From the NCBI GenBank assembly GCA_017405525.1, contig JAFRAH010000036.1:1-32226 (forward strand): DNA of 32,226 nucleotides, given 5' to 3'. Source of the stretch: Synergistaceae bacterium (GTDB lineage: Bacteria; Synergistota; Synergistia; Synergistales; Aminobacteriaceae). A program made the translations under genes and the position numbers. Numbering within the stretch: the first letter of the stretch is position 1; each line of letters begins with the position of its first letter. Of the stretch, positions 4,618 to 32,226 are shown piece after piece. A model generated the notes under the pieces. That model worked only from the letters and a program-made list of their open reading frames with translations, made no database searches and was not told the origin of the DNA.

Positions 4618-7600
4618 ATGGCATCAATGAGTGTGTCAGGAATAATTTCCGGCATGGACTGGGAGAGCATGATTGACGAGATAATCACCAATGCCGCCAA
4701 GCCAGCACAACCCCAAGTCAGCAAGAAAACCAACCTGACCAACAAGAAATCACTCTTTGAGGAAATGAAGACTACGATGAACAGCCTTCAGTCCTCATTG
4801 TCGCCCCTGAAGCTGCCATCAACCTACAAGGCCAAGACGATAGACATAGAGCGTCTCGACAAGAACGGTTCATACAAGGGAGTTCTTACTGCTACGGTGA
4901 ACGCCGATGCTGAAGTGAACGTTTGGGATGTGAAGGTGAACAAGCTCGCCACAGCCCAGATAAACCGCTCGAAGCAGATTACGGGCTCTTCACTCTCAAG
5001 CACACTAAGCGGCGTATCAGGCAACACCATGTACGTGAACGCAGGGGGTCAGAAGATCGGAATTGAGGTAAAATCCACCGATACCCTCGAATCCCTAAAG
5101 TCCCGGATAAACACAACGTTGAAGACCCTCGACAGCCCTATATACGTAACGGCCTCAGTGGTCGACAACAAGTTAATCCTGAAGAGCGACTATACCGGGC
5201 TCGGAACGATGACTGCCACCGAGACGACCCGCTACAACTATTCCAGCGGCATAAACAGGCTCAGCAACATAACGATACCTGAAGCGGCTTACGACAACGT
5301 GAAGGTAACTTCCGGCACTAAGTCCTACACGATACACAAGGACTTTGAGATCGCCAACGGCAACGAGATACGCTGGAGGCAGAACGACAGGGGAGACAGT
5401 GAGCACCTTGAAGTTGGTCTGAGCGGCGAGGCAAAGATAAACTACAAGATGGCCGCCGGGGATGTCTACACGAAAACAGGAACGTATGACACCAACGAGG
5501 TGGAAATTTCGGGGTTTGACCTTGTGGACAACAGGACGCTTTCGAGCCGGGCAAAGATTGTTGATGATGACGGCAACGAGTACGTGTACGGCAAGGACTT
5601 TACGATAAAGGACAAGAAAATCGTATGGCTTGAGCCTGAAGGGCCTACGACGAATGAGCCGGACACCTACACAGTGAGCTACAATAAGACCACGGCAGGA
5701 AGCTACAGTGTTACGGGCACTAAGATTAACCCGATAGACGTTCCTGAATCATACACGGTCAGCTATGATAAAGTTCATGGGTTGTCAAGGATTACTTCAT
5801 CCGGCACCACAGTAGACTTCCAGCACCCTACAAGCGGTGCAAGCGGCGATATGCCTACATACGTAGAGTTTCAGGACACTTACGGCATGTCTGTTGCCAG
5901 TGCCCCGCAAAGAATCGATTTCGACTCAAGCAGTGATGACAAAATAGAAGTTCTGGAAAGCGGCTCGGTGGGAAGTTACTCATACGTTACTGACTTCATC
6001 ATAAGGAAGGCAGGCTACGGCTCAGGCAACCCGGCCGAATGGAACAATCATGCTGTAATAGAATGGCGTTCATCCAACAGACCAAGCGGCGAATATACAG
6101 TCAGGTACACACACACATATTCAGCAAGCTCAAGTGATTCATCCGGCATTGAAGATGTCATCACTGAGGCCGGGACTGACACGGCAGGCATCACAATAAC
6201 AGGCTCAGACGGCACAGTATACACGCAAGGCACTCACTATGACATTAAGGACGGCAAGATTGTCTGGAAGACCCAGAGCGAAGTTATAGATGTAACAATG
6301 GATCAGTTCAGCGAGCTCCAGACAAAATACGCCGAAGCCTACAGCTCAAAGCACGGAACATCCACCGAGCTCACGACAAAAACGCTAATTGACGGCGATG
6401 GAGTACTCCGCACATACGTAGACCCCGACGACCCCAGCATACTCACAATAACTGCAGACGGTGAAAGCTACGAATACGGCAGGGATTACGTCCTCCGTGT
6501 GAACGACTCAGGGACTGGCTACAGATTCCAGTGGCTTGTTGACGGTGGAGAGTCAATCACTGATGCTGATACCGTAGTTACAACATACGCAGAGTACAAG
6601 AACATAAGCACTCAGGAGTGGAAGAAAGCCCCCACAGAGAACACAGCCTATAGCTTCGGGTTTGACTACAATATTACGGCCACCGATTCAGGCACGGTCA
6701 ACAAGACCGACACCGACAAATCCCTCGCCACAGTCCTCAAGAATGTAACGGTATCCAGCTCAGACTACTCTACCGCACTCACTATCACTGACGGGACAAA
6801 GACATATTCATACGGGACTGACTGGACGATTGACGAGTCGGGAAATATTACGTGGATTGAGAAAACTAAAGGAACTCCGACATCATACACAGCAACATAC
6901 GCAAATCCCTCAATCACTATCACAGGTTCAAACGCAAACGCAAGGTCTTTCAACCTGACTACAGCGGCAAATGGTTTCCCGAAATATTCAGATTTCGAGG
7001 CTCTCTACAAGAATACAAAGGGCACTGACGTTCCTACAGTAACAGCGGCAGGACTAACGTACATAGCTGATGAGTCGTTCTTCTCTGTGAGCGGTTACAC
7101 ATACGGTGAGGATTTCGTGGTAATCAAGGGAGGCGGCGGGCTGGTCTCAACTGTGGGTGATTACAGTCTTGTTATTGCGTGGGCACCTGACGGGATAGTG
7201 AACAATTACCCCAACAAAACGATGTCGTCTATAACTACCCACGATAACCCCTACACAGTTTCAATGCAACCAATATCTTCCGGCGAGATCAGTACCGACA
7301 GCGGCAAAAAACTCTCTGACGTTCTGGGACTGACTAACCTTTCGGACATGTCAAAGGTAACCATCACGGCAGGCGGCAATGTATACAACTACAACTCCAC
7401 GGCGACAAAAGCATCTGACCTTGCCGAAGATGAGTATTTCCTTGACAGCGGAATAGTAGTTCTAGGCTCACCGCAGGAAGAGCCCAAGCACCCCGCTGAA
7501 GGAGTCGGCTACACGTTCACCTACGAGGCATTCTCAGTAGGGGCAGACGACACATACAGCTCATCAAGCACTACTCAGGAAGTCTCAATAGCAATCTCTG

Positions 7601-9717
7601 ACGGAGCGGGCAACATTGGCGGTAATGCCGTGAGCTATGAGCAGATACTCAAGTTCGCAAGCGTCTCTTCAAGCGAGACAGACCAAGACAAAATAGACTC
7701 CTCACTGTCAAACTTCTTCACCCTCACTGACTCAAGCGGGAACTCCTACGTTTACGGCAGGGACTACAGGGTCATCAAGGGCTCAAACACTGACGCAGAC
7801 ACGGGCGAATACACTACGGCGATTGAGTGGATTTCCGGCGGCAACACTCCTTCCGACACTGCGGGGATTACCCTGAAGTTCGCGGGCACTGAGACAATCT
7901 CAACGACACTGAAACGTTCGGCGGCTGATTCGGCGTTCTCACCTTCCGTTGCACTCGATGACCTTGACGGCGGAACTGTTACCATCACTCAGGGCATGAA
8001 GACATACTATGAGGGCGTTGACTTTGAGCTTGGCGAGGATGACGACGGGAACGCTATAGTAGAGTGGATCTCAGACACTGACGGCGGATATGAATGGTTC
8101 TACCCGGAGGCCGGAACAAGCTACACCGTGAACTACACCGACAAAAACGGCAACACAACGTCATACACGGGGCGCAAGAACTCAAGCGAAACCCTCGACA
8201 TGGCCGACTTGGGTATGACCACAGCGAACGGCTCAATCAGCTTCCAGTATGGCGATGGACTGTCCTACAAGCTCGATGCTCCATCACAGTATGACGATGA
8301 CGGCAACATAATTCCCGACACTGATGGACATGCGGCGATAAGGTCAGCATACGCAACCGACATCACGAAGAGCGGAACGGCCTTTAATTTCCGCTGGCTC
8401 ACTCCTCCGATGACGACACACTCAAACCTTCCCTCAATGAATGACGAAATCACCGTAGAATATGAATACGATGCCAACACGTTTGACCTTGAAGATGATT
8501 CGGACGGCGATTTACTCTATGCTTTGGGGTTCGTGAAGTCCGACAAGACTACATACGATGACTACACGGCGGCTCAGGACGCTGAACTTGAGGTTGACGG
8601 CGAGACAGTCTACAGGGACTCCAACGACATAGGGGCTGATTATGACAACGAGCTCATCAAGGGCGTAACTCTCCACCTCAAGGGAACGGGTGAAGTATCA
8701 CTGGACATCTCCCACGATGCAGAAAAGGCCGTAGAGTCGATACAGTCATTTGTTGACAGCTACAACGACCTTATGACGTGGATGAATACCCGAATGACTG
8801 AAAAGCAGGTTGACGAGGACACAGCCGCAACAATTGACAGCGATGACTTCAGGATGAGGTGGGGCCTCCTTCACGGAAATTCACTGCTCCGTCAGACAAA
8901 GAGCCAGATGCGCAACTTAACCTCCCAGAATTTCACGTTCTCGTTCACCCAGCGCAAGAGCTCCGAAGAAATCTACGGTTCAATGTCCTTCAACGGCCTC
9001 AAGTCATCATCAACTCTCAGGCTCAGGATTGGGAGCAAGTACGTTGACGTTACGATTGACCCGACAGACACGCTCGAAAGTATCGTGAAGAAAATCAGCG
9101 ACGACACAAAGGGCGGGGCAATGAATGACATCTATTATGACGACCAGGGCAACAAGCTGGGCTCTCCCCTCCTGAAGGCATATGTTGAGAATGACAAGCT
9201 GGTGATACAGTCAGGGAGCAATGACGAAATCACAATGTCAGGCTCGGCGGCAATGAATGCCCTCAAGATGAACTACACCTACAAGGGGCTCTACCAGATA
9301 GGCATAGAGTCAACCTCTGACGATTACGGGAAGAGCGGAGAGCTTACGTTTGACGCTAACGAGTTCATGGAGGCACTGGAAGACAACCCCGATGAAGTGC
9401 AGGCGTTAATGCTTAAGTTTGTCGGTGAGTTCGACACGTGGACAAAGGGAATGCTCAACAGTTCGGCATCAGGCGAGACATCCGGAACACTGACCCGCGA
9501 AATCGAGAACATACAGAGCCAGATAGACCGCATAAATGAGTACCTTGAGAACTACCAGGACAGGCTCGACCGTATGGAGGAGAGTCTGAGGACGAGATAC
9601 GCGAACACTGAAACTCAGTTCTCGAAGCTCTCACAGCAGGCCAACTCAATATCAGCAATACTGAACCAGCTCAACGGAACGGCAACAGGTGGAGGTTACG
9701 GGCAGACAAGCTCCTAA
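4618..9717 (+). CDS. fliD: Giant flagellar filament cap protein FliD (HAP2)
   Basis: Secreted through the flagellar export apparatus, FliD forms the cap that folds flagellin at the filament tip. FliD_N is clear at ~1-115 (SGIISGMDWESMIDEII). FliD_C runs from ~1344 (KGVTLHLKG, then SFVDSYNDLMTWMN, then GLLHGNSLLR near 1415) to a terminal coiled coil at ~1622-1690 with SLRTRYANTETQFSKLSQQ. Flagellin_IN-like segments lie near 137-205 and 1457-1550. At 1699 residues it is about three times the usual 450-700. The excess, ~235-1290, is roughly ten to twelve diverged beta-rich repeats (see separate entry). No cysteine was noticed, as is usual for exported flagellar proteins. The start is set by AGGAGG ten bases upstream. 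No other flagellar gene is in the window. It ends in a strong terminator. Confidence 0.9.
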   Translation: MASMSVSGIISGMDWESMIDEIITNAAKPAQPQVSKKTNLTNKKSLFEEMKTTMNSLQSSLSPLKLPSTYKAKTIDIERLDKNGSYKGVLTATVNADAEVNVWDVKVNKLATAQINRSKQITGSSLSSTLSGVSGNTMYVNAGGQKIGIEVKSTDTLESLKSRINTTLKTLDSPIYVTASVVDNKLILKSDYTGLGTMTATETTRYNYSSGINRLSNITIPEAAYDNVKVTSGTKSYTIHKDFEIANGNEIRWRQNDRGDSEHLEVGLSGEAKINYKMAAGDVYTKTGTYDTNEVEISGFDLVDNRTLSSRAKIVDDDGNEYVYGKDFTIKDKKIVWLEPEGPTTNEPDTYTVSYNKTTAGSYSVTGTKINPIDVPESYTVSYDKVHGLSRITSSGTTVDFQHPTSGASGDMPTYVEFQDTYGMSVASAPQRIDFDSSSDDKIEVLESGSVGSYSYVTDFIIRKAGYGSGNPAEWNNHAVIEWRSSNRPSGEYTVRYTHTYSASSSDSSGIEDVITEAGTDTAGITITGSDGTVYTQGTHYDIKDGKIVWKTQSEVIDVTMDQFSELQTKYAEAYSSKHGTSTELTTKTLIDGDGVLRTYVDPDDPSILTITADGESYEYGRDYVLRVNDSGTGYRFQWLVDGGESITDADTVVTTYAEYKNISTQEWKKAPTENTAYSFGFDYNITATDSGTVNKTDTDKSLATVLKNVTVSSSDYSTALTITDGTKTYSYGTDWTIDESGNITWIEKTKGTPTSYTATYANPSITITGSNANARSFNLTTAANGFPKYSDFEALYKNTKGTDVPTVTAAGLTYIADESFFSVSGYTYGEDFVVIKGGGGLVSTVGDYSLVIAWAPDGIVNNYPNKTMSSITTHDNPYTVSMQPISSGEISTDSGKKLSDVLGLTNLSDMSKVTITAGGNVYNYNSTATKASDLAEDEYFLDSGIVVLGSPQEEPKHPAEGVGYTFTYEAFSVGADDTYSSSSTTQEVSIAISDGAGNIGGNAVSYEQILKFASVSSSETDQDKIDSSLSNFFTLTDSSGNSYVYGRDYRVIKGSNTDADTGEYTTAIEWISGGNTPSDTAGITLKFAGTETISTTLKRSAADSAFSPSVALDDLDGGTVTITQGMKTYYEGVDFELGEDDDGNAIVEWISDTDGGYEWFYPEAGTSYTVNYTDKNGNTTSYTGRKNSSETLDMADLGMTTANGSISFQYGDGLSYKLDAPSQYDDDGNIIPDTDGHAAIRSAYATDITKSGTAFNFRWLTPPMTTHSNLPSMNDEITVEYEYDANTFDLEDDSDGDLLYALGFVKSDKTTYDDYTAAQDAELEVDGETVYRDSNDIGADYDNELIKGVTLHLKGTGEVSLDISHDAEKAVESIQSFVDSYNDLMTWMNTRMTEKQVDEDTAATIDSDDFRMRWGLLHGNSLLRQTKSQMRNLTSQNFTFSFTQRKSSEEIYGSMSFNGLKSSSTLRLRIGSKYVDVTIDPTDTLESIVKKISDDTKGGAMNDIYYDDQGNKLGSPLLKAYVENDKLVIQSGSNDEITMSGSAAMNALKMNYTYKGLYQIGIESTSDDYGKSGELTFDANEFMEALEDNPDEVQALMLKFVGEFDTWTKGMLNSSASGETSGTLTREIENIQSQIDRINEYLENYQDRLDRMEESLRTRYANTETQFSKLSQQANSISAILNQLNGTATGGGYGQTSS
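5270..8475 (+). repeat. Diverged tandem protein repeats inside FliD
   Basis: The insert encodes a recurring unit of roughly 80-110 residues. Its core reads Y-x-Y/F-G-x-D-F/Y/W, then 5-20 variable residues, then I/V-x-W, then a loop often with P, then a Y-T/V-x-Y strand. Clear copies begin near residues 322 (YVYGKDF), 454, 536, 618 (YEYGRDY), 730 (YSYGTDW), 827 (YTYGEDF), 1044 (YVYGRDY) and 1130 (YYEGVDF), with weaker ones near 236, 678, 923 and 1217. DNA identity between copies is low, so these are old duplications rather than fresh ones. The pattern suggests strings of small surface-exposed beta domains. Confidence 0.65.
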
Positions 9718-21384: not shown

Positions 21385-21413
21385 TTGACACTCCTCCGGC
21401 ATTAACCTAAAAT
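21385..21413 (+). promoter_or_regulatory. Housekeeping sigma-70 promoter for the repeat-tract glycosyltransferase
   Basis: TTGACA (21385-21390, perfect) and TAAAAT (21408-21413, five of six) with 17-base spacing. The start should be near 21420, giving a ~43-base leader. The -35 lies in the loop of a G/C-rich inverted repeat (21370-21400) that may end the glutaredoxin-like transcript, although it has no T-run. Confidence 0.7.
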
Positions 21414-21462
21414 TTCTTCACACTAAACCTATATGGTATCTATTAACGAAGGGAGCTTTAAC

Positions 21463-22429
21463 ATGACAGAGATCCTCTCCTCTCCTCTCCTCTCCTATTG
21501 CCTTTTTTTGCTATAACCGTCCAGAACACACACGAAAAACACTAGAAGCCCTGAAGGCGAATTACCTTGCCCCTGGGAGCAGGCTGTTCATTTTCTCTGA
21601 CGGCCCGAAGGATGACGCTGCCCTTGAAGGTGTCAGGAAGGTGCGTGAATATATCGCCACGGTTGACGGCTTTGCTTCCGTTGAGATTATCGAGCGTGAA
21701 AAGAACTATGGCTGTTCAGGCAACATCATTGACGGGATAACTCAGGTCGTCAATGAGTTCGGAAGGGTTATTGTCGTTGAGGATGACATACTGACCAGCC
21801 CTTGGTTCCTGCGCTACGTGAATGATGCCCTCGAACTCTACAAGGACGATGACAACGTAGCGATAATCAGCGGCTATCTTCACCCAAGATATTTGCGTGC
21901 CTATAAGGACATGCCGCAGAGTTTCTTCATGCGCGTCCCGATGATATGGGGCTGGGGAACATGGCAGCGTTCCTGGAAAGACTACGAATATGATGCCGGG
22001 AAGTTGCTCGAACAGATAAGGGCACAAGGCCGGGAGGATGAGTACAACTACTGCCTCAAGAACAAGCCCCGAACCCGAAATCTTCAGGCTCAGGCTGACG
22101 GCAAAGTCGGAACGTGGGACTACCAGCTTGACGCGAGCATGTTCCTCAAGCGCAGGTTATCGCTCTGTCCCGGAAGAACCTTCACGAACAACATAGGCCA
22201 TGACGGAACTGGTATTCACTGCGGAATAGCTGACTATGATTCGGTAAACGTCAAGCTCTCGGACGAATACGAGCCTCTAAGGAAAATTCCCGTTGAACTT
22301 GACGAAAAGGTATACGAAGTTCACAGGAAGAGCCTCATACCGCCATCACTTCCATACAGGGCAGTGCGTAAACTTTGGCGGATAATTACCGGGAAGAACA
22401 GAAAGTCAGTAAAAGTTAGTAAGGGTTAA
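21463..22429 (+). CDS. Phase-variable GT-A-type glycosyltransferase (OFF in this sequence)
   Basis: Cytoplasmic nucleotide-sugar glycosyltransferase. The enzyme frame runs from the repeat tract through FFCYNRPEHTRKTLEAL, LFIFSDGP, a VVEDDI acidic motif and WGWGTWQRSW to the stop at 22429. No start codon in that frame is well placed: it is closed by TGA at 21464, and the first usual start codon is GTG at 21641, after the conserved N-terminus. The intended start is ATG at 21463, with GGGAG seven bases upstream. As sequenced, that ATG reads 17 codons through a TCCTC repeat tract and stops at 21514. One extra 5-base unit, or two fewer, joins ATG to the enzyme frame (MTEILSSP...SPIAFFCYNRPEH) for ~320 residues. 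A strong promoter precedes it. The product probably modifies a surface glycan (inference). Confidence 0.8.
21473..21496 (+). repeat. Pentanucleotide microsatellite (TCCTC)4.8
   Basis: Twenty-four bases of uninterrupted 5-base period: four full units plus TCCT, starting ten bases after the A of the ATG. As 5 is not a multiple of 3, each unit gained or lost shifts the frame. A run of seven Ts (21503-21509) lies seven bases further on and is a second possible slippage site; loss of one T would also restore frame. Confidence 0.95.
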
Positions 22430-31622: not shown

Positions 31623-32226
31623 ATAGACACGTTAACCCAACTCGACAAGCTCGAATCACTTTTCCCCGGCTGTATCACCGAACACAAAGACCAATCCGGC
31701 AAAACCATCAAGGCCGTCGACTTCAACATGCTCCGTCAGCTACTCGGCGACGAAACAGCCCAGCCCCAAGAAGAACGCTACACCTTCACATGGCCGGGAA
31801 AGTCCCAAGCACGCAACGAGGCAGAACTAACCCCGGAACTCACGCTCAGGCCATGCCCTGAAGACAGCCTCAACTTCAACGCCACCGGGAACATCTACAT
31901 TGAGGGCGACAACCTCGACGCTCTCAGGGTAATACGCAAGAGCCTCCGCCAAAAAGTCAAGATGATCTACATTGACCCGCCGTACAACACAGGCAATGAC
32001 TTCATATACAGGGACAATTTCACCGCAAGCAGGGAGGACTACTCACGCTCCGAGGGCAGCACCGACAGCGAGGGCTTTAGGGTCATCAAGAACACAGTGG
32101 CGAACGGCCGCATTCATTCCGACTGGTGCAGCATGATTTACGCGCGCCTCCTCGTGGCGAGAGACCTGCTCAGGCATGACGGGGTGATATTCATCTCGAT
32201 TGACGACAACGAACAGGCCAACCTCA
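31623..32226 (+). CDS. Type III restriction-modification Mod subunit (N-terminal part, runs off the window)
   Basis: Adenine-N6 DNA methyltransferase of the beta class; about 201 residues are visible. Seen: TLTQLDKLESLFPGCITE, then YTFTWPGK, LRPCPEDS, NIYIEGDNLDALR and the catalytic IDPPYNTGNDFIY (DPPY at ~118-121), the order known from Mod proteins such as those of EcoP1-type systems. The SAM-binding FxGxG motif and the Res partner lie beyond 32226. No ATG, GTG or TTG opens the conserved N-terminus; the best ribosome site, AGGGAGG at 31608-31614, points to ATA at 31623. The first ATG in frame, 31728, would remove 35 residues. Placed beside a toxin-antitoxin pair and a repair helicase. Confidence 0.85.
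   Translation, partial: MDTLTQLDKLESLFPGCITEHKDQSGKTIKAVDFNMLRQLLGDETAQPQEERYTFTWPGKSQARNEAELTPELTLRPCPEDSLNFNATGNIYIEGDNLDALRVIRKSLRQKVKMIYIDPPYNTGNDFIYRDNFTASREDYSRSEGSTDSEGFRVIKNTVANGRIHSDWCSMIYARLLVARDLLRHDGVIFISIDDNEQANL

Follow-up and report, generated by a model that had tools for sequence, protein, structure and literature searches.

A pentanucleotide repeat at the start of a glycosyltransferase gene in a Synergistaceae bacterium: a probable translational on/off switch and member of a genus-wide set

In the window, the 32,226-nucleotide stretch of DNA analyzed here, a short tandem repeat lies directly upstream of a glycosyltransferase frame (Table 1). The window is contig 10 of the genome of a Synergistaceae bacterium (G000; 2.17 Mb, 43 contigs, 99.4% complete). 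A near-consensus promoter, of a kind met only 28 times in 807 kb, is found 50 bases upstream of an ATG that is preceded by a Shine-Dalgarno sequence (SD), and a 100% perfect tract of 4.8 TCCTC units, on which TRF and a script agree, begins 10 bases behind this ATG. As sequenced, the ATG frame encodes the peptide MTEILSSPLLSYCLFLL and then stops. The enzyme frame starts PIAFFCYNRPEH, encodes PIAFFCYNRPEHTRKTLEALK from the tract onward, and is offset by 1 base from the ATG frame; the ATG-to-TAT distance is 49 bases. By frame arithmetic, tract lengths of 14, 29, and 44 bases (-2, +1, and +4 units) are ON, and lengths of 9, 19, 24, 34, and 39 bases are OFF. An earlier note on this DNA had described the promoter, the ATG with its SD, the 24-base tract, the early stop, and the 1-base offset, and had calculated that gain of one unit or loss of two restores the frame; TRF, the script, and direct reading bear out this anatomy, to which +4 units can be added.

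Table 1. Features of the switch locus (positions in the window)
Feature	Position	Strand	Basis or remark
Near-consensus sigma70-type promoter, TTGACA-N17-TAAAAT	21385-21413	+	11/12 match; presumed to drive the switch gene
Shine-Dalgarno sequence, AAGGGAG	21449-21455	+	Direct reading
ATG frame as sequenced (OFF), 17-codon peptide, TAA at 21514-21516	21463-21516	+	Translation
(TCCTC)4.8 tract, proposed slippage site	21473-21496	+	TRF and script
Glycosyltransferase frame (PF00535, GT2-like), 311 aa, lacking its own usable start codon	21494-22429	+	

The locus has three attributes of a translational SSR contingency gene: a perfect tandem tract at the 5' coding end, with a unit length not divisible by 3; a frame that is intact on both sides, in which slippage would restore the protein; and a surface-structure target, as judged from a PF00535 match over the cut-off. 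Transcription would start at the upstream promoter and translation would run from the ATG through the repeat, while slipped-strand mispairing at replication would add or remove TCCTC units and change the frame. One tract length in three would yield the full enzyme and the other lengths a short peptide; the sequenced copy would be OFF. We consider it very probable that the TCCTC tract is a translational on/off switch of the glycosyltransferase and belongs to a genus-wide set of such switches. Slipped-strand switching of the reading frame is proposed with high confidence, by anatomy and by analogy with known loci; because the tract is short, its slippage rate may be low.

The enzyme matches Pfam Glycos_transf_2 (PF00535) just above the cut-off. 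Its conserved N terminus starts right at the tract, and it aligns without gaps from PIA onward with related enzymes, which begin MKKLAPIALFTYNRPEH (L005) or MKQAPIISLHFNRPDH (L007). The gapless alignment places the frame break within the ATG and tract, as opposed to the run of seven T that follows (T7; 21503 to 21509). Loss of one U from T7 would restore the frame, as would be needed if expression were regained at this run without any change in the DNA, through slippage in transcription or a ribosomal frameshift. However, the conserved first strand PIAFF would then become SYCLF, seven T are short for slippage, a -1 ribosomal shift leads into the wrong frame, and the other tracts have no accompanying T run; we regard restoration at T7 as extremely improbable. 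A PDB sequence search with the enzyme gave no match, and a single-sequence structure prediction (pLDDT 45) was not used.

The out-of-frame state of the sequenced copy could also be that of a fixed pseudogene, with a tract grown by chance and an enzyme permanently dead, and the genome does have glycosyltransferase genes that are interrupted (L012, by an internal TAG). Against this, the 311 downstream codons are intact and the conserved residues EDD and WGWGTW are present, the promoter and SD look intact, and at least 16 other 5- or 7-base tracts, some of them ON, occur in the same genome, so that a dead gene is quite unlikely. An assembly or sequencing error in the tract, with the true gene in frame, is more improbable still. 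Tandem repeats are error-prone, and contigs of this assembly often end in them; yet the tract is real with a unit of 5, its 24 bases are shorter than any usual read length, a miscounted length would leave the same switchable anatomy, and sister loci show both ON and OFF frames.

The enzyme is found in only 3 of the 43 genomes of the genus. A syntenic copy in G021 (L004) adjoins the same Hsp20 gene and begins within the contig edge; its missing 5' end was sought in the G021 assembly and not found. The nearest complete relative (L005 in G033; 53% identity) has a normal start without repeats. The 15-base pattern TCCTCTCCTCTCCTC has no second copy anywhere in the G000 genome, and an exact-unit search with a 19-base version of the pattern gave no hit in 42 congeners. 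Since relatives of the enzyme do not carry the tract, it is probably, to judge from these sequences, a recent gain in this species. The earlier note had looked to related genomes for tracts of varying length before an intact enzyme: the enzyme frame is intact, but none of the 42 congeners has the tract and the nearest complete relative starts without it.

Besides the window tract, 16 or more 5- or 7-base tracts occur in the G000 genome, mostly at or before the starts of surface-sugar genes, and some are ON. A census that was not motif-selected gives a wider view; it covered 807 kb, comprising 407 kb of G000, including the window, from stretches chosen partly for glycosyltransferase (GT) gene content, and 400 kb of congener G020, from blocks at the low ends of long contigs, most of which were known from earlier matches. 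Units of at least 3 bases were present in 33 tracts, 27 of them with 5- or 7-base units (7 bases in 18, 5 in nine, 6 in three, and 3, 9, and 14 in one each), and no tract with a unit of at least 3 reached the census thresholds in three first-order Markov shuffles of the 807 kb. Homopolymers of 10 or more numbered 12, with G/C in 11. The switch reading of the earlier note is supported, whereas its description of a single locus missed the genus-wide set to which the locus belongs.

GT2 genes offer a direct comparison: a 5- or 7-base tract is present at 5 of the 20 GT2 loci located in G000 and at 8 of 30 in congeners, and at none of the 30 examined in the family's other genera. One further G000 GT2 enzyme is split into two frames by a run of 14 C/G (L077, 10097-10110; G000:C8:23597-23610) and is a candidate homopolymer switch; other poly-G/C runs of 10 to 14 are present in the G000 and G020 stretches. 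Another GT2 gene (L012; G000:C42:3001-3498) has an in-frame TAG and no repeat tract, as in an ordinary pseudogene or other interruption. GT8 orthologues in five species keep the unit CGCCCAA in 5.6, 4.1, 4.6, 4.6, and 13.4 copies, with one OFF and four ON. In the G000 assembly, 6 of about 62 contig ends seen lie inside 5- or 7-base tracts, and two pairs of ends share a unit and apparently adjoin (C8 end and C9 start, ACACA; C36 end and C33 start, CAGGGCA). Contig breaks in tracts are expected where the sampled population varies in tract length; long tracts alone also break contigs. Two contig ends (L233 start, G000:C1; L238 start, G000:C6) carry a CRISPR-like repeat, roughly GTTTCAATCCCTAATAGGAAGGTTCGTAAT.

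In most of the set, an SD and start codon overlap a near-consensus promoter immediately before the tract, the usual order of this cassette being AAGGAG, TTGACA, start codon within the promoter spacer, TATAAT, and tract. Among the 27 census tracts with 5- or 7-base units, 16 or 17, depending on how the split L064 tract is counted, are directly behind a match of at least 10/12 to TTGACA-N16-18-TATAAT, which is found at 15 of 20,000 random sites; 12 of the 28 near-consensus promoters (at least 11/12) in the 807 kb were scored by the script as tract-abutting. The pattern AAGGAGN{1,4}TTGACN{17,19}TAYAAT occurs 124 times in 26 of the 43 genus genomes; the rest of the phylum sample, which spans 63 genera in all, has five occurrences in 145 genomes. 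Read backwards, it has no occurrence in the genus genomes. We read 92 distinct copies, of which 85 run into a tract, and two, from other genera, have none. The unit is 7 bases in 74 of the 85 and 5 bases in 11, in 2.1 to 17.4 copies, and the tract is within 3 bases of the -10 box in 80. A start codon with a frame open through box and tract is present in 83 of 85. All 42 distinct units are stop-free in the three frames of the coding strand. For the opposite strand this holds in 33 of the 42, and for shuffled units in 89%.

Further upstream, an outer extended -10 (TGNTATAAT) usually lies 14 to 32 bases before the SD; 41 of 84 cassettes have an exact TATAAT in the 55 bases preceding the SD, nearly always at 14 to 32 bases, compared with 0.7% of random windows. 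The outer promoter can make the translated message, and the inner promoter would start transcription behind the start codon. We rejected the idea that the TTGACA box is a mere Shine-Dalgarno flank: in variants of congener G020 (L229, positions 14827 and 15907, about 1 kb apart; L231, position 2359), the SD has shifted into the promoter spacer, and both boxes and the tract have not moved. In G015, nearly identical cassettes precede different genes and follow unrelated upstream DNA (L189, L190, L192), indicating that the module is reused. G033, the genome with the 53% relative of the window enzyme, also has three nearly identical cassettes (AAGGAGGTTGACCTCTTGACA; C1:126762, C14:35897, C19:539), and CACGAGC repeats follow in the one that was read. 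Elsewhere (L153/L146, G001:C50; L127, G012:C459), the boxes and start codon are present and the tract is gone, possibly as locked remnants; the L153 cassette precedes an acyltransferase-like frame.

Surface-sugar functions are prominent among the targets. The commonest Pfam families among 74 products downstream of cassettes are GT2, GT1/GT4, bacterial sugar transferase, GT8, and MBOAT acyltransferase; methyltransferase, nitroreductase, and radical SAM are also common, with PglD-like and GT10 products lower down. The targets of G000 itself that were scanned are GT2, GT2, GT8, GT4-like, MBOAT, and GT1. The genus set of 5- and 7-base switches would mostly control glycosyltransferases, sugar-phosphate transferases, and acyltransferases.

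The cassettes act on their targets, by anatomy, in one of two modes. In 35, tract and enzyme are fused; of these, 12 are ON and 23 OFF, that is, about one third are ON, as random phases predict, and this proportion, together with the many 5- and 7-base tracts at surface-sugar genes, makes the slipped-strand switch of the earlier note the best reading. The two G000 loci with the unit TGCGACC (C36 and C41) have a common leader and are both OFF. In the other 39 cassettes, the enzyme has its own start, mostly 30 to 100 bases behind the tract, and the tract lies in a leader frame. Of the 38 that have an ATG, 35 contain a leader frame with its stop in the range from -5 to +14 of that ATG, exactly as ATGA in 19; shuffled spacers reach this range in 39%. 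Folding before leader-mode starts is somewhat stronger than in controls (mean z -0.59 versus +0.31, p 0.003), and a clear hairpin covers the Shine-Dalgarno sequence in about a third of these loci. As far as sequence can tell, these loci are built for translational coupling that depends on frame, in which ribosomes ending the one suitable leader frame at the enzyme start codon would start again there.

The inner promoter could instead be an ordinary promoter of the downstream gene, with the repeat tuning the transcription start or 5' UTR and not the frame. The consensus match abuts the tract in nearly all cassettes, and a leader-mode transcript from it would include the gene's own SD and ATG. 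However, a fused-mode transcript from this site begins behind the start codon and could not yield the enzyme, and we rejected the inner promoter as sole driver of all cassettes on that ground. In addition, cassette units are never multiples of three and are stop-free in all frames, the leader has one frame whose end is tuned to the start of the gene, and an outer extended -10 is usually at hand before the SD; an ordinary promoter is thus an unlikely account of the cassette, and we favor frame switching. As for the placing of a consensus promoter against the repeats, we weakly favor, from its position, the idea that RNA polymerase opening the DNA at the tract raises the slippage rate. We tentatively raise the possibility, with the balance against it, that the cassette is a dedicated hypermutable module, copied before surface-sugar genes, whose promoter would have the task of driving or tuning slippage, and not that of producing mRNA for the gene. 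The main alternative role is that of supplying a basal transcript for leader-mode genes.

The tract in the window is of the plain fused type, with no separate leader ORF, unlike the 39 leader-mode cassettes. An inner promoter with a -10 abutting the tract is absent here (the site scores 6/12), which places the window tract outside the genus cassette class. Two other features of the window were named by eye. Positions 4618 to 9717 encode a 1,699-aa FliD-like (flagellar cap) protein, much longer than usual, with an enlarged middle. At 31728 to 32226, downstream of a YafQ-like toxin gene, the contig end truncates a Mod-like methyltransferase of Type III restriction-modification (DPPYNTGNDF motif), of which only the first part is present; mod genes are often phase-variable elsewhere, and no repeat tract was seen at this one.

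The closest parallel is found in Haemophilus influenzae, in which a PF00535 glycosyltransferase has an (AGTC)14 tract immediately behind its start codon (PMC2651432). In the portion of that account on which we draw, the SSR contingency loci share with those described here a non-triplet tract behind the start of a surface glycosyltransferase, a frame that sets ON or OFF, and many loci per genome; they have mostly 4-base units, whereas 5- and 7-base units, mostly in a shared cassette, dominate here. The same portion describes no inner promoter abutting repeats, a feature of the genus cassette. It does describe 7-base repeats at hmw1A/hmw2A, located in the promoter region, at a distance of about 100 bp, where they tune transcription; 7-base repeats by promoters of surface genes are common to both, but those of the genus are translated and would switch the frame. 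In Streptococcus gallolyticus, pil1 and pil3 pilus operons undergo leader-peptide phase variation through (GCAGA)n, a long leader disrupting a transcription terminator (PMC3894217). There, as in our leader mode, 5-base repeats sit in a leader ORF and the frame sets the leader stop and downstream expression; in contrast to action on a terminator, one leader frame in the genus ends on the gene's start codon (mostly ATGA), at dozens of glycan genes. The window locus, with its tract fused to the enzyme frame, is not of the S. gallolyticus type.

Our literature search gave no description of repeat switches in Synergistetes or Fretibacterium, as the earlier note had anticipated for this lineage, nor of SSR glycosyltransferases in gut MAGs, nor of a promoter abutting or internal to repeat tracts. 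Phase variation by SSRs is itself classical; what appears to be new is the lineage and the cassette, in which a near-consensus promoter is set against the repeats.

These findings carry repeat-based phase variation beyond the few pathogens from which it is mainly known, into a large genus within a small phylum, where a genome has many switches and most units are of 5 or 7 bases. The cassette lends itself to testing the effect of promoter opening on repeat mutation rate, which is usually confounded by gene context, and the leader-mode loci are a clean natural set for the study of frame-dependent translational coupling. If our reading is correct, it bears on how out-of-frame genes in genome assemblies are read, and one clone would give rise to many surface-glycan states, with consequences for resistance to phages and for interaction with the host. 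Random reshuffling of the coat is probable in this bacterium and in most of its sister species.
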